A DNA stretch of 60,153 bases, taken from the NCBI GenBank assembly GCA_900197615.1, contig FZLR01000006.1, positions 1-60,153 on the forward strand, in the 5' to 3' direction. Below the pieces are notes generated by a model that saw nothing but the letters and a program-made list of their open reading frames with translations, had not been told where the DNA came from and did not search any database. Shown here piece after piece: positions 47,227 to 58,786 of this stretch; the first letter of the stretch is position 1; each line of letters starts with the position of its first letter. Position numbers and translations under genes: made by a program. Source of the DNA: Rhodospirillaceae bacterium Spongia-Bin9 (GTDB lineage: Bacteria; Pseudomonadota; Alphaproteobacteria; Bin65).

Positions 47227-48465
47227 CTAACCGGGCCCTGTCACGATGAAGCTCACCATTGTCGTCGCGCTGCCGCCGATATTGAGCGTCGCGGCAGTGC
47301 GAGCGTCTTCGACCTGGTAGCCGTCGGCCCGGCCCGTAACCTGCTTGCAGGCGTCCACCAGCATGCGGACCCCGGTCGCGCCGACCGGGTGGCCGCCGCC
47401 GATCAGCCCACCCGACGGATTGACCGGCAACGAACCGTCCCGCCGGATGACACCGTCCTCAACCGCCTTCCAGCTCTCGCCGGGCGCGGTAAGGCCGAAA
47501 TGGTCGATCGCCATATATTCGGTGGTCGTGAAGCAGTCGTGCGTCTCGATGACGTCGAGCGCCTCCGGCCCGGAGATGCCGGCCCGGGCATACGCGTCGG
47601 TCAGGGTGCCGCGGACATGGGGGAAGACATAGGGGCTGTTGCGCTGCTCCTTCAGCTTGTCTTCCAGCCGGATGGTCACCGTACGGTGGCCCCAGCCCGC
47701 GATATGCGGAATGGCTTCGAGCGCGATGCCCCGCCGCCCGGCATAGTTCCTGGCAAAGCTCTCCGACGCCAGGAACACGCAGGCCGCGCCGTCGGTGATC
47801 TGGCCGCAGTCCTGCTTGCGGATCATGCCCTCCACCACCGGGTTGGCGTCGTCGTCCCGGGTGAAGCTGCGCTCGTTGAAGCGGTACTCCCGCGTCTGGG
47901 CGTTCGGGTTGGTCCGGGCGTTCGAGAAGTTGGTCTCGCCGATCGCCGCCAGGTGTTCGTAGCGCAGGCCGTAGCGGCGGTCGTATTCCTCGCCCAGCCT
48001 GTCGAACATCCACGGCCACATCCACTGCGCCTCTTCGCCCTCCGCGCCGATATGGGCGGCGGCGGCCAGGTTGTCCGCGGCGGTCTGGGCATCGGTGTGC
48101 CGCATCATCTCAACACCGAGGACGCAGGCGAGGTCGTAGTGCCCGGCCTTGATATCGGCCTGCGCCGCAAGGGCGGCGAGACTGCCGGAGGCACAGGCGC
48201 CCTCGTGCCGGGTGGCTGGCAGGCCGGAGAACTCCGGATGCAGCGCGGCGAATAATCCGCCCAGTTGGCCCTGGCCGCAGAACAGTTCGGCGACGAAATT
48301 ACCGATATGGGCGACCTGGATCTCTTCCGGTCCGATACCGGTTTCGCCCAGGGCGCCGTCGACAGCCTCGCCCATCAGCGCCTTCAGGTCGACGCCGTTG
48401 CGCTGGTAGGCGCGTTTGAAATCGGTCTGGTAGCCGCCCAGCAGATAGACCTTCCGCTCCGACAT
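47227..48465 (-). CDS. Thiolase-family protein (acetyl-CoA acetyltransferase/SCP-x type)
   Basis: 412 residues, ATG at 48465. The acyl-accepting cysteine is in EGACASGS (C91), the second motif is IETHDCFTTTEY (His), and the third is GGGHPVGATGVR (His of the GHP motif); the C-terminal Cys of biosynthetic thiolases (CxGGG) is replaced by NIGGSATT. This is the pattern of SCP2/SCP-x-like thiolases, often acting on branched or steroid side chains. Followed upstream on the strand by a carotenoid oxygenase and an NMO-like gene. Confidence 0.9.
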   Translation of the reverse strand: MSERKVYLLGGYQTDFKRAYQRNGVDLKALMGEAVDGALGETGIGPEEIQVAHIGNFVAELFCGQGQLGGLFAALHPEFSGLPATRHEGACASGSLAALAAQADIKAGHYDLACVLGVEMMRHTDAQTAADNLAAAAHIGAEGEEAQWMWPWMFDRLGEEYDRRYGLRYEHLAAIGETNFSNARTNPNAQTREYRFNERSFTRDDDANPVVEGMIRKQDCGQITDGAACVFLASESFARNYAGRRGIALEAIPHIAGWGHRTVTIRLEDKLKEQRNSPYVFPHVRGTLTDAYARAGISGPEALDVIETHDCFTTTEYMAIDHFGLTAPGESWKAVEDGVIRRDGSLPVNPSGGLIGGGHPVGATGVRMLVDACKQVTGRADGYQVEDARTAATLNIGGSATTMVSFIVTGPG

Positions 48466-48503: not shown

Positions 48504-49922
48504 CTATGCGGCGGCCGCGACCTGGTCGCCCCGCGCCCAGGTGGCGTGGAAGCCGAGCGGCACGCGCTGCGGAATCCTGACACGGGCGACCGGGCCGGCG
48601 TCGAGCGCCCTTGCATCGAATACCTGCGCTTCCGACCGGCCGTCCGGCCGGTCGACCGTGAAGGTGACGACATAGCCATCATCCTCTTCGACGGCGCCCG
48701 GCCGGGGCGCGAACACCGGTTCCGAACCGTACACGCCGGGCGCGAACTTGTGCTCGACGCACGCGCCGGTTTCCAGATCGTATTTCAGCAGCCCGTCGAA
48801 CAGCAGCTTGTCCGAGCCTTCCAGGGAAACATGGTAGGAGTGGCGGCCCTTGCGGCCGACCCAGTCCTGGTTGACCGCCGGGAATTCGCCGAGCCGGTCG
48901 TCGAGCTGCCGCTCGGCGATCCCGCCCGTCTTCAGGTTCATGCGCCATTCCACCGGCACGGCGTGAAGCGCCAGCACCGCCACCATGGGCGCGTAGGGGC
49001 CGTATTTCGCGTCCGGCGCCAAGTTGTTCGGGATCATCTTGCAGGCGTGCATGACGACCTCGTCGCCATCTTCCCAGCAATTGATCACATGATAGATGTA
49101 GCAGGGATCGGTCTCGAACCATCGGATCGCGTCGCCGCGGCCGTTGCGCGGCAGCACGCCGAACCTCGTCGGCAGGTCGCGCGGCTGGTGGATGGTCCAC
49201 AGGCCCCGCTTCATCCCCTGTTCGGTGAAAACCACCGGCAGGTCGTGCAGGATCGCGTAATTCTCCGTGATACCCATGTCGTGCGGCAGGCGCGGACCGG
49301 GCAGTTCGATCTGCGTGAAATGCTTCAGTTCGTTGTCGGCGCGGACGACGCCGAACGACATCCACGGCTCGTAGAGCGCATAGTCGAAGAACAGCAGTTC
49401 GCCGGTCCGGTTGTCGGTCTTGGCGTGGGCGGAAATGCGGCGCGGCAGCCGGCCGGAGAACGTCTCTTCCCCGATGGTCTCCAGAGTCAGCGGATCGACC
49501 CTGACCGGCGCGCCGCAGATATACCAGAGCGCCATCAGCGCGCCGTTGTGGATGACGATATCCGTGCTCGCCGTATCCTTGTATGCCGTCCCGTCCCGCC
49601 CTCGGTCCGCGGGTTCGAGGATTCCGCCGCCGGCGCCTTCGCCGGCAAGCTCGGCAAGATGGTCCTTTGTCCTGACATAACGGTTGCGGTAGGTCGCCTT
49701 GCCGTCTTCGAACCAGACGGCGTGAAGCATGGCGTCGCCGTCGAACCAGTGATGCATGCCGCTGGGCGGGCTGACCGGATTGGGGCCGTTACGGTAGTAG
49801 CCGCCGAACAGATCGCGCGGGATTTCGCCTTCGACCTCCAAATCCTCCGCAACGATCTCCTTTTTGATCGGCGCATAGAGCCCCTGGAGATAGGGGTTGA
49901 GATCGTTGATTTTCATGTCCAT
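48504..49922 (-). CDS. Carotenoid oxygenase (retinal pigment epithelial membrane protein family)
   Basis: 472 residues from the ATG at 49922, behind GGAGGAAA; a second ATG lies two codons later. The seven-bladed propeller family is seen as GGYYRNGPNP near the start, HHWFDGDAMLH, RISAHAKTD with an iron-binding His, HDMGITENYAI, and a final HATWARGDQ. Four histidines bind iron. Bacterial members cleave apocarotenoids or lignin-type stilbenes. The neighbours (thiolase, NMO, later acyl-CoA synthetase) fit breakdown of a long hydrophobic compound. The substrate is open. Confidence 0.9.
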   Translation of the reverse strand: MDMKINDLNPYLQGLYAPIKKEIVAEDLEVEGEIPRDLFGGYYRNGPNPVSPPSGMHHWFDGDAMLHAVWFEDGKATYRNRYVRTKDHLAELAGEGAGGGILEPADRGRDGTAYKDTASTDIVIHNGALMALWYICGAPVRVDPLTLETIGEETFSGRLPRRISAHAKTDNRTGELLFFDYALYEPWMSFGVVRADNELKHFTQIELPGPRLPHDMGITENYAILHDLPVVFTEQGMKRGLWTIHQPRDLPTRFGVLPRNGRGDAIRWFETDPCYIYHVINCWEDGDEVVMHACKMIPNNLAPDAKYGPYAPMVAVLALHAVPVEWRMNLKTGGIAERQLDDRLGEFPAVNQDWVGRKGRHSYHVSLEGSDKLLFDGLLKYDLETGACVEHKFAPGVYGSEPVFAPRPGAVEEDDGYVVTFTVDRPDGRSEAQVFDARALDAGPVARVRIPQRVPLGFHATWARGDQVAAAA

Positions 49923-49977: not shown

Positions 49978-50979
49978 CTATTCCGCTGCCGCCGGAAAAT
50001 CTTGCAGCCAGCGATTCGGCGCGAGTCCGTCGGCAACGGCCGCGGCGTATTCGGATTTAAGCACGTCTGCAACTTCTGCCACCGGCTGGACTGCACGGGT
50101 CGCCCCGACGCCCTGGCCGGCGGACCAGATGCTTTTCCAGGCTCTTGCCTCGTCGTGCGGGTCGCCTTCGAAATTGACAGTCCGCTCGACGATGCCGCCC
50201 CGGGGATCGAATCCGGCGGCGGCAAGGCTGAGGCTCAGGAAGTTCGCCGGCACGCCGGTGACGGCGTTGGTCAGCGCGACATCTTCGGCGCCCGCGCCGA
50301 TCAGCATGTTCTTGTAACCGCGCACGGCCATGCTTTCCCGAGCGGCAATGAAACGCGTTCCCATATAGGCGAGATCCGCGCCCAGAACTTCTGCGGCGCG
50401 TACGGCGCGGCCGTCGGAAATGGCGCCGGCGAGGATCAGGGGGCCATCCCAGAACCGGCGCACTTCGGGCAGGAATGCGAATCCCGTGAGCGGGCCGACA
50501 TGGCCGCCGGCGCCCGCCGAGACGAGGATCAGTCCGTCGACGCCGGCTGCCGCGGCCTTGCGGGCGAAAGCCACCGAATTGACGTCTGCGAAAACCAGGC
50601 CGCCATAGGCGTGCACCGCCTCGATGACATGAGCCGGGCTGCCCAGGGCGGTGATCACGATCGGCGGCCGATATTTCTCCACCAGGTCCAGTTCGGCGCC
50701 CAGCCGCTCGTAGGTACGGTGCACCACCATGTTGAGCGCCCAGGGTCCGATCTTCCGGCCGGCCGCCCGGTTTCGCATGTAGGCGACGCCGCTGGACACC
50801 CGGTCCAGCCATTGCTCAAGCTCGTCTATGCTCCGGCAATTCGGCGCTGGAAAGCTGCCGCCGAGCCCGGCGGCGCAGCACGCGAGCACAAGGGCCGGCC
50901 CCGAAACCAGAAACATGGGCGCCACGAAAACAGGCAGTGCAAGGTTGTCTGCAATCGGCGGCGGAAGACGGCTGCTCAT
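49978..50979 (-). CDS. Nitronate monooxygenase-like flavoprotein (2-nitropropane dioxygenase family)
   Basis: 333 residues, ATG at 50979. The FMN-binding TIM-barrel pattern is shown by VFVAPMFLVSGPAL, VITALGSPAHV, LILVSAGAGGHVGP and LAGAISDGRAVRAAEVLGADLAYMGTRF. The catalytic His of class I enzymes would be in AGGHVG. The family oxidises alkyl nitronates, and many members have other unknown substrates. It is 55 nt upstream of the carotenoid oxygenase on the same strand, so it probably starts that operon. Confidence 0.88.
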   Translation of the reverse strand: MSSRLPPPIADNLALPVFVAPMFLVSGPALVLACCAAGLGGSFPAPNCRSIDELEQWLDRVSSGVAYMRNRAAGRKIGPWALNMVVHRTYERLGAELDLVEKYRPPIVITALGSPAHVIEAVHAYGGLVFADVNSVAFARKAAAAGVDGLILVSAGAGGHVGPLTGFAFLPEVRRFWDGPLILAGAISDGRAVRAAEVLGADLAYMGTRFIAARESMAVRGYKNMLIGAGAEDVALTNAVTGVPANFLSLSLAAAGFDPRGGIVERTVNFEGDPHDEARAWKSIWSAGQGVGATRAVQPVAEVADVLKSEYAAAVADGLAPNRWLQDFPAAAE

Positions 50980-51045
50980 GAACCTTGGCTACCATTCAGG
51001 GTCTCTTAATGCAAGTGACAGCGACTGCAGACAGGCGGGGCGTTC

Positions 51046-52035
51046 TCAGCGCTCCAGGTCCGGCTCCAGGTCGTCCGGACTCACCGTACGGCCGCAAGCT
51101 CCGCAGATCGGCGCTGGCGTCAGCCGCAACCCACAGAGCTTGTGGGTCAGGATCAGGGGTGCCCGGCCGTGTCCTGCAATCCATTTATCGCCCCAGTGGA
51201 GCAGGGCGACGGTCAACGGATAGAGATCGAAGCCCTTTTCGGTGAGGATGTATTTGGCCCGTGCAGGCCGGCGCTGATAAAAATGCCGGGCGAGAATGCC
51301 GCAATCGGCCAGCCGGGCGAGCCTCTCGGCAAGGATGTTGGGGGCGATCCCGATAGCCCGCTCGATATCGCTGAACCGCCGGATACCGAACCAGCCGGCC
51401 GCCAGGACCAGCGCGGCCCACCGGTCGCCCAGGACATCCGCGGCAGTGACCGGCATGGCGCCTTCCCCCGGCGACGTACGCCGCCGCAGCCGGCGGAGGG
51501 GAGAAGACCGGTCAATCCCGGCGCCCGGGCCGGGCGCATAGGCGACATCGCGGGCGCGAATGGCGGCCTTGCAGACAGAACAGCCGAGAAGCGGCACGAA
51601 CGGTCGACCGCAGCCGGCATGGATGGCTTGGCGCCCGGCGCCCGCTTCGGATCCGCGTTCGGCCATCGGCGGAGAGCCCCAGTTCCGGTCCCAGGCGCGG
51701 ATCGCGTGGATGATCGGCGCCGTATCGCGCCCCATTTCAGCAAGCCGGTATTCGAAGCGGGCCGGCGCTGTCCGGTACTGGGTGCGCTCGACCAGCTCCT
51801 GATGCACGAGGTCGTCCAGCCTTGCAGCGAGCGTGCCGCGCGAAATTCCGAGCGACGCGGTCAGCCGGTCGAACCGTCCGGGCTCGAAGTGGAGTTCTCG
51901 GAGGATATTCAGAATCCATCGGTCGCCCAGGATGTCGAGCACCGGGTTGACGATGCTCGCCGACAGCAGCCTGCGGGCCGTCTCTACCGTTTCCGGTTCC
52001 TGGTCCGGAAGGTCGAATGGCTGAAACGGGGACAT
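51046..52035 (-). CDS. Duplicated HxlR-type regulator with two Cys/His clusters
   Basis: 329 residues from the ATG at 52035; a TTG 20 codons upstream is less likely. Two HxlR winged-helix domains are visible (about residues 30-120, ILGDRWILNILRELHF; and 200-285, VLGDRWAALVLAAGWF). Each is followed by H-X2-C-X9-C-X2-C with identical spacing: H139, C142, C152, C155 and H298, C301, C311, C314. These look like zinc-binding knuckles. Typical HxlR proteins have one domain of 110-150 residues and act as dimers. This one is a covalent dimer by duplication. It is divergent from livHMGF and likely regulates it. Confidence 0.88.
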   Translation of the reverse strand: MSPFQPFDLPDQEPETVETARRLLSASIVNPVLDILGDRWILNILRELHFEPGRFDRLTASLGISRGTLAARLDDLVHQELVERTQYRTAPARFEYRLAEMGRDTAPIIHAIRAWDRNWGSPPMAERGSEAGAGRQAIHAGCGRPFVPLLGCSVCKAAIRARDVAYAPGPGAGIDRSSPLRRLRRRTSPGEGAMPVTAADVLGDRWAALVLAAGWFGIRRFSDIERAIGIAPNILAERLARLADCGILARHFYQRRPARAKYILTEKGFDLYPLTVALLHWGDKWIAGHGRAPLILTHKLCGLRLTPAPICGACGRTVSPDDLEPDLER

Positions 52036-52098
52036 CGGCAGAAACCTCGCCGGTCGGGCCGGAGCGCGCAATCGAGACGCGGACAGGCGGAACAAACA

Positions 52099-52133
52099 GG
52101 TTGCTTAGATTAAGTCCAATAAGATAAGTAACC
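52099..52133. promoter_or_regulatory. Operator candidate upstream of livH
   Basis: GGTTGCTTA (52099-52107) and TAAGTAACC (52125-52133) are inverted with one mismatch over a 17-nt AT-rich spacer. They lie 63 nt from the HxlR-type gene and 81 nt from livH. Two unequal binding modules of the fused regulator could occupy such a split site. Confidence 0.5.
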
Positions 52134-52214
52134 GATAGTTCCGTCGGCAGGCAACAGTCCTGCGCGCGCAGCCGGCATGGGCGCCGGAACAACGCTACGG
52201 GAGGCACAACCGGC

Positions 52215-53087
52215 TTGCTGGATTTTCTGCAGCAGTCCCTCAACGGGTTTGCGACAGGCTGCATCTACGGTCTGGTCGCTCTCGGTTTCGTGCTGATCTA
52301 CAAGGCCTCGGAAATCGTCAACTTCGCCCAGGGCGACATGCTCATGCTGGGCGCCTTCGTGGGCTGGACCGCCCTCGATGTGTTGGGCTTCGGCTACTGG
52401 CCGGGCCTCCTGTTCACGATCCTCGCCTGCGCGGCTATCGGGTTCCTGCTCGACCGGCAGGTCATGCGGCCGATCATCGGGCAGCCGCAATTCGCCGGCA
52501 TTATGCTCACGATCGGCCTTGCCTTCACGATTCGCGGCGGCGTGATCATGATCTGGGGGCCGGAGGAGCGCAGCTTCCACACCCCCTTTTCGAACAAAAC
52601 CACCGCTTTCGGCAGCCTGGCGGTAGACGATGTCAGCCTGTCGATCGTCGCGGGAACGCTTGTCCTCTGCGCCGTACTTTTCATTTTCTTCCGGCGTTCC
52701 CGCCTCGGTGTCGCGATGCAGGCGGCCTCCCAGAACCAGCTCGCCGCCTACCTGATGGCGATACCGGTGAAGACCGTGAATTCGCTGGTCTGGGGGCTGA
52801 GCGCCGGGGTCGCCGCCGCCGCCGGCATGTTGCTTGCGCCTTCGCTTCTGGTCGACACGAACCTCTGGATCGTCGTGCTGAAAGGTTTCGGCGCCGCAAT
52901 TCTGGGCGGCTTCGGCAGCATTCCGGGCGCCGTCGTCGGCGGCATGATCATCGGGGTGTCCGAGCAACTGGTCGGCGTGTATCTGGATCCCGAATCGAAG
53001 GGTATCGCCGCCTACGTTATCCTTCTTGCCGTCCTGCTGGTCTGGCCCCAGGGGCTGTTCGGCGGCGCGGAACGCAAGCGGGTATAG
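52215..53087 (+). CDS. livH: Branched-chain amino acid-type ABC permease (LivH)
   Basis: 290 residues from a TTG at 52215, behind GGGAGG about 11 nt upstream; no ATG fits in frame nearby. Polytopic with about eight helices and the LivH motifs GCIYGLVALGFVLIYKAS, NFAQGDMLMLGAF and the EAA-like GFGAAILGGFGSIPGAVVGG. Forms the channel with LivM. First gene of a livH-livM-livG-livF-acyl-CoA synthetase-binding protein operon. Confidence 0.92.
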   Translation: MLDFLQQSLNGFATGCIYGLVALGFVLIYKASEIVNFAQGDMLMLGAFVGWTALDVLGFGYWPGLLFTILACAAIGFLLDRQVMRPIIGQPQFAGIMLTIGLAFTIRGGVIMIWGPEERSFHTPFSNKTTAFGSLAVDDVSLSIVAGTLVLCAVLFIFFRRSRLGVAMQAASQNQLAAYLMAIPVKTVNSLVWGLSAGVAAAAGMLLAPSLLVDTNLWIVVLKGFGAAILGGFGSIPGAVVGGMIIGVSEQLVGVYLDPESKGIAAYVILLAVLLVWPQGLFGGAERKRV

Positions 53088-53096
53088 GGTCCGGCC

Positions 53097-54169
53097 ATGC
53101 GCTTCGACTTCAAGACTCGCTACGAACAGGACTTGCGCCTCTTTCCGCACCGGACCGACCTGCTCGGCAACGGGGCGTTGCTGCTTTGCATGCTGGCGGC
53201 GCCGCTGGTGCTGCCGCAATATTTTCTCGGCGAGTTGACCTTCCTGCTCGTCTACGGCGTCGCCGCCATCGGACTGATGCTGCTTTCCGGCTTCGCGGGC
53301 CTGATATCGCTCGGCCACGCCGCCTTCATGGGCATCGGCGCCTATGCCCATGCCATCCTGCTGGAGGCCGGCCTGCCCTTTGCGCTGTCGCTGCCGCTCG
53401 CCGGGCTTATCGCCGGCGCCATCGGCATGCTGCTCGGCATTCCGGCGTTGCGCATGACCGGCCTCTATCTCGCCATCGCGACGCTCGCCTTCAGCATTAT
53501 CGTCGAGCATGTCATCGGCAAATGGGAAGGGCTGACCCAGGGCCATGGCGGCATGCAGGTGCCCGAAGCCTCGCTCGCCGGCTTCGACATGGGCGATATC
53601 GAATCCTTCTACTACACGGCGCTGGCCATCCTGTGCCTGGTTGTCGTCGGTACTGCGAACCTGTTGCGCTCCGCCACCGGTCGGGCATTGATCGCGCTGC
53701 GCGACAGCGAGGTCGCGGCCCAGGCCCTGGGCGTGAACCTGCCTTACGCCAAGGCGGTCGCCTTCTCCCTCTCGGCGGGGATTACCGGCATTGCCGGCGG
53801 CCTGTTCGCCCACCGGATCGGCTGGCTGGAGCCCGGATCGTTCAACGTCGTGCTGTCGCTTCAGCTCCTGATGATGGTGGTCGTCGGCGGCCTCGGCTCG
53901 CTGAAGGGCGCGCTCCTGGGAGTGGCCTTCCTCGGCGTGCTCGATCCGGCGATCGCGATCCTCAAGGATTACCTGCCTTCGGCGATCGGCGGCGCCGCCG
54001 GCCTGCAGCTCTTCCTGTTCGGCCTCGTCCTGGTGCTTTTCGTGCTGTTCGAGCCGCTCGGCCTCTACGGCCGCTGGCTGAAGATCAAGGCCTATTTCGA
54101 CCATTTCCCGATGTATCGCCGGGCCACCTTCCAGCGCACCAAGACCTATATGCAGTCGGAGCGCTACCG

Positions 54170-54173
<4 letters not shown>
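53097..54173 (+). CDS. livM: Branched-chain amino acid-type ABC permease (LivM)
   Basis: 358 residues, ATG 9 nt after livH. The protein has a soluble N-terminal stretch (about 1-20), then helices, with the LivM motifs GLISLGHAAFMGIGAYAHA and the EAA-like VVGGLGSLKGALLG. The C-terminal tail after residue 320 is basic and cytoplasmic. It overlaps livG by 4 nt (ATGA). Confidence 0.93.
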
Positions 54174-54930
<757 letters not shown>

Positions 54931-54934
<4 letters not shown>

Positions 54935-55704
54935 GCGGGCCTCTGCTCCAGGTTCGCAACGTGGAGAGCTACTACGGGCCGATCATGGCGCTGCGCGGCG
55001 TCAGTCTGGAGGTCGAGCGCGCGCAGATCGTCGCCGTGCTGGGCGCGAACGGCGCGGGCAAATCGACCCTGCTGCGTACGATCAGCGGCGTGATGGACCC
55101 GCGAGTCGGCACCATCGCCTTCGACGGCCAGGAGATTGCGGGACAGGATCCGGACAAGGTCGTCCGCCTCGGCATGAGCCTGGTGCCCGAGGGACGCCAG
55201 GTATTCCCGTTCCTCACCGTCGCCGAGAATCTGGACATGGGCGCCTTCGGCCGGCGTGACCGCACGGGAGTGCCGGAGGACCTGGAGCGGGTCTATCGCT
55301 ACTTCCCGCGGCTTGCCGAGCGGACCGGGCAACAGGCGGGTCTCCTCTCCGGCGGCGAGCAGCAGATGCTGGCGATCGGCCGGGCGATGATGGGCCGGCC
55401 AAAGATGCTGCTGCTCGACGAGCCGTCGCTGGGGCTCAGTCCCTTGCTGGTGCAGGAGATTTTCGCCATCGTGGCGCAGATCAACGGGGATCTCGGGACG
55501 ACTGTCCTGCTCGTCGAGCAGAATGCACGGGCGGCGCTCGGCTTCGCGCACTATGGCTACATCATGGAACTCGGCCGGATAGCGCTATCGGGCGACTGCG
55601 CCGACCTGCGCGACAATCCCGATGTCCAGGAATTCTATTTGGGTATCAAGGAAGGCGGCATCCGGGGCAAGCGCCGCTGGCGGAGGCGCAAGACATGGCG
55701 CTGA
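54931..55704 (+). CDS. livF: Branched-chain amino acid-type ABC ATP-binding protein (LivF)
   Basis: 257 residues from an ATG overlapping livG by 4 nt. Walker A is GANGAGKST, the signature is LSGGEQQMLAIGRAM, and Walker B is MLLLDEPSLGLSP. It carries about 15 extra residues after the usual end (YLGI), a strongly basic tail (RGKRRWRRRKTWR). The tail arises from reading over the start of the next gene, which it overlaps by 10 nt. Confidence 0.94.
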
Positions 55705-57536
55705 CCCGGCCCAACGGCCGCACTTCGCTGTTCGACCGGCTGCCCGCCACGCCGGCGCGCCTCTTCTGGCAGCGGGTGGCGGAGACGTCGGACTCGGTGG
55801 CGCTCCGGGAAAAGGCGCTCGGCATCTGGCGCAGCTTCACCTGGGCCGACTACGGGGAAAGCGTACGCCTGGCGGCGCATGCCATGGCCGATGCCGGGGT
55901 CGGGCGCGGCGACGTGATCTCGGTGCTCAGCGAGAACCGGCCCGAATGGATGTATTGCGATATCGCCGCCATTTCGATCGGTGCCATCGGCAACGGCATC
56001 TACACGACCTCCGCACCGCCCCAGGTTGCCTACGTCCTCAGGGATTCGCGGACGCGCATCGTATTCGTCGAAGACGAGGAGCAACTCGACAAGGTGCTCG
56101 AGGTGCGCGCCGATTGCCCGGACCTGCTGCGCGTCGTCGTCATCGATCCAACCGGGCTGCGCGAGTTCGACGATCCGATGGTCGAGACCTTCGCCGCCTT
56201 TCTGGAGCGCGGCGCCGCGCTCCGCGCGGCCGACCCGGACTTCGTGGACTCCGAGGTGGCCAAGGGCCGGCCCGACGACACCGCAATTCTGATCTACACA
56301 TCCGGAACGACTGGCCGCCCCAAGGCGGCCATGATCACCAACGACAATCTGATCTTCCAGATCGGAACCTCTCCCACCGTGGCCATGCTGAACCCGAGGG
56401 ACGAAATCCTGTCGTTTCTGCCGCTGTGCCACATCGCCGAACGCAATTTCGCCCTCTTCTTCCCCATCGCGCACGGCAATGTCGTCAATTTCGCCGAAAG
56501 CCCGGAAACCCTGTTCGGCAATCTCCGGGAACTCTCGCCGACCGCGGTCTTCGCGCCGCCGCGCCTGTGGGAGAAGATGTATTCCACCGTAACCCTGACG
56601 GTGAAGGATGCCCCGCCTTTCCAGCGCTGGGCCTACGGGCGGGCGCTGGCGATCGGCAACGCCGTCGCGGCGTCGGAGGAACGCGGCGAAAAGCCCGGCC
56701 TCCTGGCCGGACTGTTCGAGCGCCTGTTCGCCCGGCCGGTCCTGTACAATGTGCGGGCGGCCCTCGGGCTCAACCGGATCCAGCATGCCCTGACCGGCGC
56801 CGCGCCGGTCGCGCCCGATCTGATCCGCTGGTTCCGGGCGCTTGGCATCCGGCTGCGCGAAGGCTACGGCCTCACGGAGAGCGTCGGCCTGGTCACGATG
56901 ATGCCGCCCGGCCAGACCGTGCCGGGAAGCTGCGGTACGCCGCCCGACGGCATTGAGCTGCGCTTGTCCGAGCGCGGCGAAGTGCTGGTGCGCGGGCGCA
57001 ACGTGTTCCGGGGCTACCTGAACAAGCCGAAACAAACGGCCGAGGCGCTGGACGCCGATGGCTGGTTGCACACCGGCGATGTCGGCGAGCTTGGTTCGGA
57101 CGGCCATCTGCGGATCACCGACCGGCTGAAAGACGTAATCATAACCGAGGGCGGCAAGAACATCACGCCGTCGGAAATCGAGAACCGGCTCAAGTTCAGC
57201 CCGTTCATTGCCGATGCGGTCGTATTCGGCGACCGGCGAAAATACCTCACCTGCCTGGTGATGATCGATTATGACAATGTCGCCAAGTTCGCCCAGGACA
57301 ACCGGGTGCCGTTCACCAACTATGGCAGCCTGTGCAAGGCGCCGGAGGTCGACAAGCTGATCGATGGCGAAATCCGGCGGGTGAATGCCGGCCTCTCGCG
57401 GGTCGAACAGATCAAGAATTACCGGCTGATCGATATCGAATTGACGGCGGAGGACGAGGAGCTGACGCCGACGATGAAGCTGAAGCGCACCCTGATCGGC
57501 CGGAAATACGCACACATGATCGACGCCATGTATTGA
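55695..57536 (+). CDS. Long-chain acyl-CoA synthetase/AMP-binding protein
   Basis: 613 residues, ATG at 55695 inside the end of livF. The adenylation motif is YTSGTTGRPKAAMI (about 200-213), the A5-type motif is GYGLTESVGLV, and the late motifs are TGDVGELGSDG and DRLKDVIITEGGKNITPSEIE. Such enzymes activate fatty, aromatic or other carboxylic acids to CoA esters with ATP. Placement inside a LivHMGF operon suggests vectorial uptake and CoA activation of an organic acid, as in phenylacetate or long-chain acid transport gene sets. The binding protein follows. Confidence 0.92.
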   Translation: MALTRPNGRTSLFDRLPATPARLFWQRVAETSDSVALREKALGIWRSFTWADYGESVRLAAHAMADAGVGRGDVISVLSENRPEWMYCDIAAISIGAIGNGIYTTSAPPQVAYVLRDSRTRIVFVEDEEQLDKVLEVRADCPDLLRVVVIDPTGLREFDDPMVETFAAFLERGAALRAADPDFVDSEVAKGRPDDTAILIYTSGTTGRPKAAMITNDNLIFQIGTSPTVAMLNPRDEILSFLPLCHIAERNFALFFPIAHGNVVNFAESPETLFGNLRELSPTAVFAPPRLWEKMYSTVTLTVKDAPPFQRWAYGRALAIGNAVAASEERGEKPGLLAGLFERLFARPVLYNVRAALGLNRIQHALTGAAPVAPDLIRWFRALGIRLREGYGLTESVGLVTMMPPGQTVPGSCGTPPDGIELRLSERGEVLVRGRNVFRGYLNKPKQTAEALDADGWLHTGDVGELGSDGHLRITDRLKDVIITEGGKNITPSEIENRLKFSPFIADAVVFGDRRKYLTCLVMIDYDNVAKFAQDNRVPFTNYGSLCKAPEVDKLIDGEIRRVNAGLSRVEQIKNYRLIDIELTAEDEELTPTMKLKRTLIGRKYAHMIDAMY

Positions 57537-57592
57537 CGGCCGGTCAGGTGCGGCAGTGCAACCACGAAACCAACTTGCAACGCGAGGGAGAC

Positions 57593-58786
57593 ATGAAGCG
57601 AAAATTCGGAATGGCGGCCATATGGGCCGCGGCAGCCACAGTAGGGCTCAACGCGCACCCCGCCCTGGCCGAAACCCAGGGCGTATCGAACGATCGGATC
57701 CTGCTCGGGACCCATCTGGATCTGTCCGGCCCGGTGGCCGCGGGCATGCCCTTCGTCGCCAACGGCATGAAGATGAGGGTCGACGAGGCCAACGCGAAGG
57801 GCGGCGTCAACGGGCGCAAGATCGAGCTGATGATCGAGGACAGCGGATACCAGCCGGCCAAGGCCGCGCGTGCCGTTCAGAAGCTTGTGCTGCGCGACAA
57901 GGTGTTCGCCGTCGTCATGTCGTTCGGCACCGGCACATCCCTCGCCGGGTACCGGGTCGCCGCCAAGGCGGGCGTGCCCCATGTGTTTCCCTGGTCGGGC
58001 GTCGCCGGGCCGTTCCATGCCAAGAACAACCCGCTCAGCTTCACCTATATCGTCAACTACGATTGGGGCACGGCTGCCGGCGTGAGCTGGGCGGTCAGGG
58101 AGCTCGGCGCCAAGAAAGTCGGCGTGCTCTATCAGGACGATCTGTTCGGCAAGCTCGTGCTGAAGGGCGTGGCGACGGGCCTCGCCGTTCACGGCCAGAA
58201 AATTGCCGCGAAGGCGGGCTTCAAACCGGGCAGCGTCGATCTGTCGTCACAGCTTGCCAGCCTGCGCAAGGCGGGGGTCGATCTCGTCATTCTGGGCACC
58301 ATCGTGCGCGAAACGATCGGCGCTTATGCCGGTGCGCAGAAGATCGGCTGGAAGGTCAAGATGATGACGACCATTCCCGGCCGGAACCAGGTCGTCACCC
58401 TCTTGGCCGGCAAGGCGAAGATCGCCCTCGACGGCCTCTATGGCATCGGCCAGTGGCGCATTCACGGGCGCACCACCAAGAACAAGCGCGCCATCGCCTT
58501 CATCGGCGCCTATATGGCCAAGTACAAGCGCCCGCCTACGGCGGAATCCATGGTCGCCTACGCGAATATGGACTGGGTGATCCAGGGGCTCTCCAAGGCG
58601 GGCCGCAATTTGACCGCCAAGAGCTTCGCCGACGCCATGCGTTCGATGACCTACAAGGATCCGTTCGGCAACCCGGACCTGCGCCTGGACAAAGGCAACC
58701 ATGCGAGCCCGCAGTCGGTCGCCATCGACCGGGTCAGGAATGGGGCCTGGGAACGGCTGACACCGGCGATCACGTCGATCAAATAG
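57593..58786 (+). CDS. ABC transporter substrate-binding protein (LivJ/amide type)
   Basis: 397 residues from the ATG at 57593, preceded by GAGGGAGAC. The Sec signal peptide is about 1-25 (ending ALA). The type I periplasmic binding fold begins with ILLGTHLDLSGPVAAGMPF and contains KARAVQKL-like and VLYQDDLFGK elements. Last gene of the liv operon, so it is the dedicated receptor. Its ligand is likely a carboxylate activated by the co-encoded synthetase rather than a branched-chain amino acid. Confidence 0.92.
   Translation: MKRKFGMAAIWAAAATVGLNAHPALAETQGVSNDRILLGTHLDLSGPVAAGMPFVANGMKMRVDEANAKGGVNGRKIELMIEDSGYQPAKAARAVQKLVLRDKVFAVVMSFGTGTSLAGYRVAAKAGVPHVFPWSGVAGPFHAKNNPLSFTYIVNYDWGTAAGVSWAVRELGAKKVGVLYQDDLFGKLVLKGVATGLAVHGQKIAAKAGFKPGSVDLSSQLASLRKAGVDLVILGTIVRETIGAYAGAQKIGWKVKMMTTIPGRNQVVTLLAGKAKIALDGLYGIGQWRIHGRTTKNKRAIAFIGAYMAKYKRPPTAESMVAYANMDWVIQGLSKAGRNLTAKSFADAMRSMTYKDPFGNPDLRLDKGNHASPQSVAIDRVRNGAWERLTPAITSIK

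Follow-up and report, generated by a model that had tools for sequence, protein, structure and literature searches.

The window, a stretch of 60,153 nucleotides from the genome of Rhodospirillaceae bacterium Spongia-Bin9, carries on its reverse strand (51046..52035) a gene with an ATG start whose translation and Pfam matches identified a tandem HxlR regulator of 329 amino acids (tHxlR). Two putative operators border this gene. Operator 1 (TAAGTCCAATAAGATAAGTAA, 52111..52131, forward strand) lies between tHxlR and livH, while operator 2 (AGGGTCTCTTAATGCAAGTGA, 50998..51018, forward strand) is located about 20 bp before the start codon of an NMO/FabK-like flavoprotein (49978..50979, reverse strand), the first gene after it. 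This flavoprotein was assigned from sequence matches in the PDB to FabK and to nitronate monooxygenases; nitronate monooxygenase profiles match it, but the FabK enoyl reductases are closer in the PDB and, therefore, the usual NMO label may mislead. A CCD/RPE65-family oxygenase (48504..49922, reverse strand) and a thiolase assigned to the PRK06289 type from the family of its relatives (47227..48465, reverse strand) come next. On the forward strand and divergent from tHxlR, we found the open reading frames of livH-livM-livG-livF (52215..55704), an AMP-dependent acyl-CoA ligase (ACS) after livF (55695..57536) with relatives at 61% and 59% in the tandem loci L059 and L061, respectively, and an open reading frame for a Liv-type substrate-binding protein (57332..58786) whose true start is probably further in and which clusters with the genes at the same place in these two loci. 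The first-pass annotation had singled out the interval 51046-52133, which comprises the tHxlR open reading frame plus the intergenic operator site, and had missed both operator 2 before the NMO-CCD-thiolase operon and the catabolic module described below.

That tHxlR is a duplicated HxlR regulator within a single 329-residue chain, as this annotation had proposed, was borne out by the PF01638 profile, which matches each half. The whole protein gave two HxlR stretches (E = 1.5e-40), namely an N-terminal winged-helix domain at residues 35-121 (51673..51933, reverse strand; 71.5 bits) and a C-terminal one at residues 201-287 (51175..51435, reverse strand; 71.6 bits), and the halves scored separately reached 70.0 and 70.6 bits against a curated cut-off of 20.8. 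An AlphaFold2 model of the full chain, computed with 51 tandem sequences as input, had a pLDDT of 88.5 and a pTM of 0.87, supporting the idea of a covalent dimer. When the N half of the model was compared to solved structures, Z scores of 13.6 were obtained for HypR and CdTR_3200, 12.7 for HxlR, 12.5 for YodB and 12.3 for QsrR. The model thus presents tHxlR as what is most likely a covalent pseudo-dimer of two HxlR domains.

The fold and the score of the HxlR/DUF24 family (PF01638), to which HxlR, YodB, HypR and QsrR belong, were found in each half of tHxlR. In contrast to the usual form of the family, a single-domain homodimer of about 110-150 residues, tHxlR contains two domains in 329 residues, although the homodimeric form is a custom of the family and not a condition of membership. 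It also differs from these regulators in its differing recognition helices, in the knuckle placed after each domain and in its asymmetric operator. No tandem was present among the solved structures found by PDB comparison. The best sequence matches were PA1607 (2f2e) and PA1374 (4gcv) from Pseudomonas aeruginosa, HxlR-like proteins that carry a beta extension at the C-terminus and, unlike tHxlR, are composed of a single domain. While 2f2e aligns with tHxlR residues 27-168, the knuckle region included, the alignment of PA1374 showed no cysteine at the knuckle positions, so such an extension does not require a metal site.

About 70 tandem HxlR relatives were found in Alphaproteobacteria, Gammaproteobacteria and a few Actinobacteria, the genera including Caulobacter, Phenylobacterium, Sphingomonas, Sphingopyxis, Novosphingobium and Xanthobacter. 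Searching genomes of the class contributed 12 further proteins to this set, and named genomes contributed 60 loci, two of which duplicate searched genomes. In a 55-row tree, all tandem halves lay to the same side of one branch (93/83), with N halves mostly grouping with N halves and C halves with C halves. Specifically, the N half of tHxlR grouped with those of L005 and L034, and its C half with that of L005. A larger quick tree gave 4 changes per N/C label compared to 34 when the labels were shuffled. This separation of the two kinds of half indicates an old fusion, with a single origin not being proven for every member. The recognition helices also differed consistently between the halves, since most N halves carry R followed by S/T/A/G and the C halves T/P/S followed by N.

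Each HxlR domain of tHxlR is followed by an H-X2-C-X9-C-X2-C knuckle at exactly the residues that the first-pass annotation had named, H139-C142-C152-C155 in the N half (51571..51621, reverse strand) and H298-C301-C311-C314 in the C half (51094..51144, reverse strand). Conservation of the eight positions among 70 tandem proteins was above chance: all four ligands were retained in 65 N halves and in 52 C halves, and all eight in 50 proteins. In the AlphaFold2 model, the ligands of tHxlR are located where short beta strands end, within confidently predicted ribbons, and their good conservation supports the proposed pairing of ribbons. Many single-domain HxlR proteins of this class have an HxxCG...CxxC motif in the equivalent position, and in others of the same fold the knuckle is absent altogether. 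By these alignments, the knuckle on its own is ordinary and the fusion is the uncommon part. Two variations of the knuckles were observed within the tandem family. The nearest tandem relative of tHxlR, L005 (G008), presented only C-X2-C in the N half and only H-X2-C in the C half, as though a single site had been divided between the two. In addition, in the tandem proteins of Phenylobacterium and in some of those of Caulobacter (L091, L092, L094, L095, L097, L098, L102-L105 and L112), Asp or Gly replaced Cys as the second ligand of the C half (HKxD), so that a possible metal site has changed in a lineage-specific manner.

The knuckles had also been proposed to sense metal, thiol stress or an electrophile. 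Under this reading, tHxlR would be a sensor of metal or redox state, letting go of the operator when its two Cys/His clusters detect zinc, an electrophile or thiol stress. The retention of all eight ligands in most tandem proteins would agree with such a function, as would the fact that HypR, YodB and QsrR, from the same HxlR/DUF24 family, respond to thiol stress or quinones according to their PDB titles. In contrast, the same knuckle is commonly carried by ordinary single-domain HxlR proteins, and the genes linked to tHxlR are catabolic, belonging neither to stress responses nor to efflux. Furthermore, operator sites persist in the tandem loci L070, L066 and L059, although their regulators have lost all eight ligands (L055), most of them (L008) and half of them (L005), respectively. 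The sensing residue in YodB and QsrR is the N-terminal cysteine of the domain. This cysteine is conserved in the thiol-sensing HxlR regulators of the YodB, HypR and QsrR type and present in many single-domain relatives, whereas the alignment showed no cysteine at the corresponding CS/CP-motif position in either half of tHxlR. We consequently consider a sensing role of the knuckles quite improbable. Because the loci of L055, L008 and L005 keep the operator despite the loss of ligands, a structural metal, which we infer to be zinc, is preferred over sensing as what the tHxlR ribbons most likely hold. In the tandem family, the ribbons are conserved without being essential.

A blind Gibbs search in four tHxlR-livH intergenic regions revealed one 21-bp element with a score of 30.7 bits, while 30 shuffled sets gave 27.0 bits or less. 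Its consensus, TnAGTmTCrTWATGCAAGTnA, includes operator 1, which was also recovered in the scan of the own genome, and matches operator 2 with 26.7 bits, the latter being outside the motif-building set. In a held-out test, the site with the highest motif score in the whole locus lay upstream of tHxlR in 11 out of 66 loci, compared to a mean of 3.3 for column-permuted motifs, 1 in 200 of which equalled this number. The motif was then refined on the sites upstream of tHxlR before scanning at a threshold of 20 bits or higher, which yielded 77 held-out sites in 52 out of 71 tandem loci versus 1.3 for permuted motifs. At 20 bits, no site was found in the single-HxlR loci, a small and Burkholderia-rich set, while 19 of the 71 tandem loci presented no operator and several had none upstream of tHxlR itself. 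In those gene clusters that could be assigned, the sites were mostly located before NMO, thiolase, CCD, ACS, Ord-like and TonB genes. The self-complementarity of the operator exceeded that of permuted versions (P = 0.0035), with the symmetry broken at positions 4/18, 6/16 and 7/15; a direct-repeat reading with an offset of 14 competes with the inverted one, the permutation test having covered the inverted reading alone. A sigma-70 consensus scan of positions 50900-52300 gave no match.

The presence of a conserved operator in the tHxlR-livH intergenic region supports the control of the divergent liv operon that the initial reading of the sequence had suggested. The operator site put forward at that time was a different one, the split palindrome GGTTGCTTA-N17-TAAGTAACC. 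This palindrome is present at 52099-52133, but an inverted repeat of equal quality was reached in 85 out of 300 shuffles, and the three other loci in which tHxlR and liv are likewise divergent showed 6, 11 and 6 mismatches out of 18. It was thus rejected, as it was at chance level and the relatives did not have it.

Genome-wide counts, for which IUPAC patterns and not a weight matrix were used, placed the matches to the 21-bp element mainly at tandem loci. The 4.06-Mb genome that contains the window had five matches with one mismatch at most, two of which flank tHxlR (52113-52131 and 51000-51018). The other three correspond to the background level because the reversed control pattern also gave three matches in this genome; at the near-match L154, no module gene was found. 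The strict pattern was present in 8 out of 29 tHxlR genomes, each time once and always at the tHxlR locus, and in 4 out of 385 genomes of the class. Similarly, 9 of the 10 matches with up to one mismatch in three Phenylobacterium genomes fell inside the tHxlR cluster, where the reversed control pattern gave none across these genomes. Co-occurrence and geometry led us to assign this putative operator to tHxlR.

The genes accompanying tHxlR were also conserved. When the proteins of the window were used as queries, relatives of the CCD oxygenase, the thiolase and the NMO-like flavoprotein were found near tHxlR in 35, 31 and 28 out of 70 other loci, respectively. An independent clustering of the neighbours in 71 tandem loci, which used GC3-based gene calls, found AMP-ligases in 39, CCDs in 35, thiolases in 28, TonB receptors in 27 and NMOs in 20 of them. 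None of these clusters appeared in the 20 single-HxlR control loci, a set that is small and rich in Burkholderia. As regards the liv genes, livH was divergent and adjoining tHxlR only in this window, L059, L061 and L064, with L059 and L061 showing the same livH-livM-livG-livF layout, and liv was rejected as a general partner. Judging from gene neighbourhoods, the general partner of the tandem HxlR proteins is the catabolic module rather than liv. The linked CCD enzymes belong to the same RPE65 family as the lignostilbene dioxygenases (LSD, NOV1), which have four iron-binding histidines, and these were kept wherever the alignment covered them. In lignostilbene dioxygenases, the Tyr-101/Lys-134 pair binds the 4-hydroxyl (PMC8191317). 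In contrast, this pair was missing in all 35 tHxlR-linked CCD enzymes, which carried L/I/V/F and F/W instead and constitute a group with hydrophobic residues at both positions. A 4-hydroxystilbene is therefore an unlikely substrate.

We consider it probable that these elements form one regulatory system. Two diverged HxlR winged-helix domains in a single chain, each with a zinc-ribbon-like knuckle C-terminal to it that would hold structural zinc, would recognise the 21-bp asymmetric near-palindrome with one diverged wing per half-site, an arrangement that would explain both the asymmetry of the operator and the consistent differences between the recognition helices. By binding to 52111-52131, tHxlR would act on its own promoter and on that of livHMGF and the acyl-CoA ligase, and by binding to 50998-51018, on the NMO-CCD-thiolase promoter. 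It could in this way control how one hydrophobic substrate is taken up and broken down, most likely as a repressor that also regulates its own gene and that an intermediate of the pathway releases.

Since the assignment of the site rests on co-occurrence, the 21-bp element might instead be the target of a different regulator or mark a special class of promoter, with tHxlR just being nearby, and the location of most sites upstream of enzymes, together with the loci that have no site upstream of tHxlR, would fit this possibility. We find it unlikely, however, because tHxlR is common to all the loci (by design), while no regulator was present among the other clusters found in at least 10 tandem loci. 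Moreover, the near-palindromic geometry suits a two-wing pseudo-dimer, and genome-wide matches that are rare and concentrated at tHxlR are a poor fit to a general promoter. With the site assigned to tHxlR, the regulator could still activate the module rather than repress it. HxlR from Bacillus has been described as an activator, and the orientation of the operator relative to the downstream gene is biased (34 opposed and 12 in the same direction), as often occurs with activators. On the other hand, the sites are close to start codons (median distance of 47 bp, and about 20 bp for operator 2 and NMO), a position from which a bound protein would obstruct the polymerase more easily than it would recruit it. 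This proximity and the location of one site between tHxlR and liv suggest an autoregulated repression. Activation by tHxlR is thus possible but not what we would expect, and we lean towards repression.

A literature search, thin on subscription journals, returned no paper on tandem HxlR proteins, on HxlR with CCD or on HxlR with zinc. It seems rather likely that, within the literature searched, the fused HxlR pseudo-dimers are an undescribed family in which duplication let the wings diverge, so that a single chain would read an asymmetric operator and govern, in Alpha- and Gammaproteobacteria, a catabolic module centred on a CCD oxygenase of non-lignostilbene type. What looked like the curiosity of a duplicated regulator becomes a testable system, with a widespread tandem HxlR family, a predicted DNA site and linked catabolic genes. 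With the operator, regulon members could be catalogued in any genome, which would help to find the substrate. The system may also be a natural case of a symmetric DNA-binding dimer turned into a single chain, with the operator losing its symmetry to match.

Two genomes presented further arrangements. Caulobacter sp. 602-1 (NZ_RRYI01000002.1) carries two different tandem HxlR genes about 8 kb apart (L072 and L092), and operator sites are present in both loci. In Xanthobacter aminoxidans (G395, L088), an operator match was found on another contig (C58:89858-89876), which constitutes a candidate remote member of the regulon.
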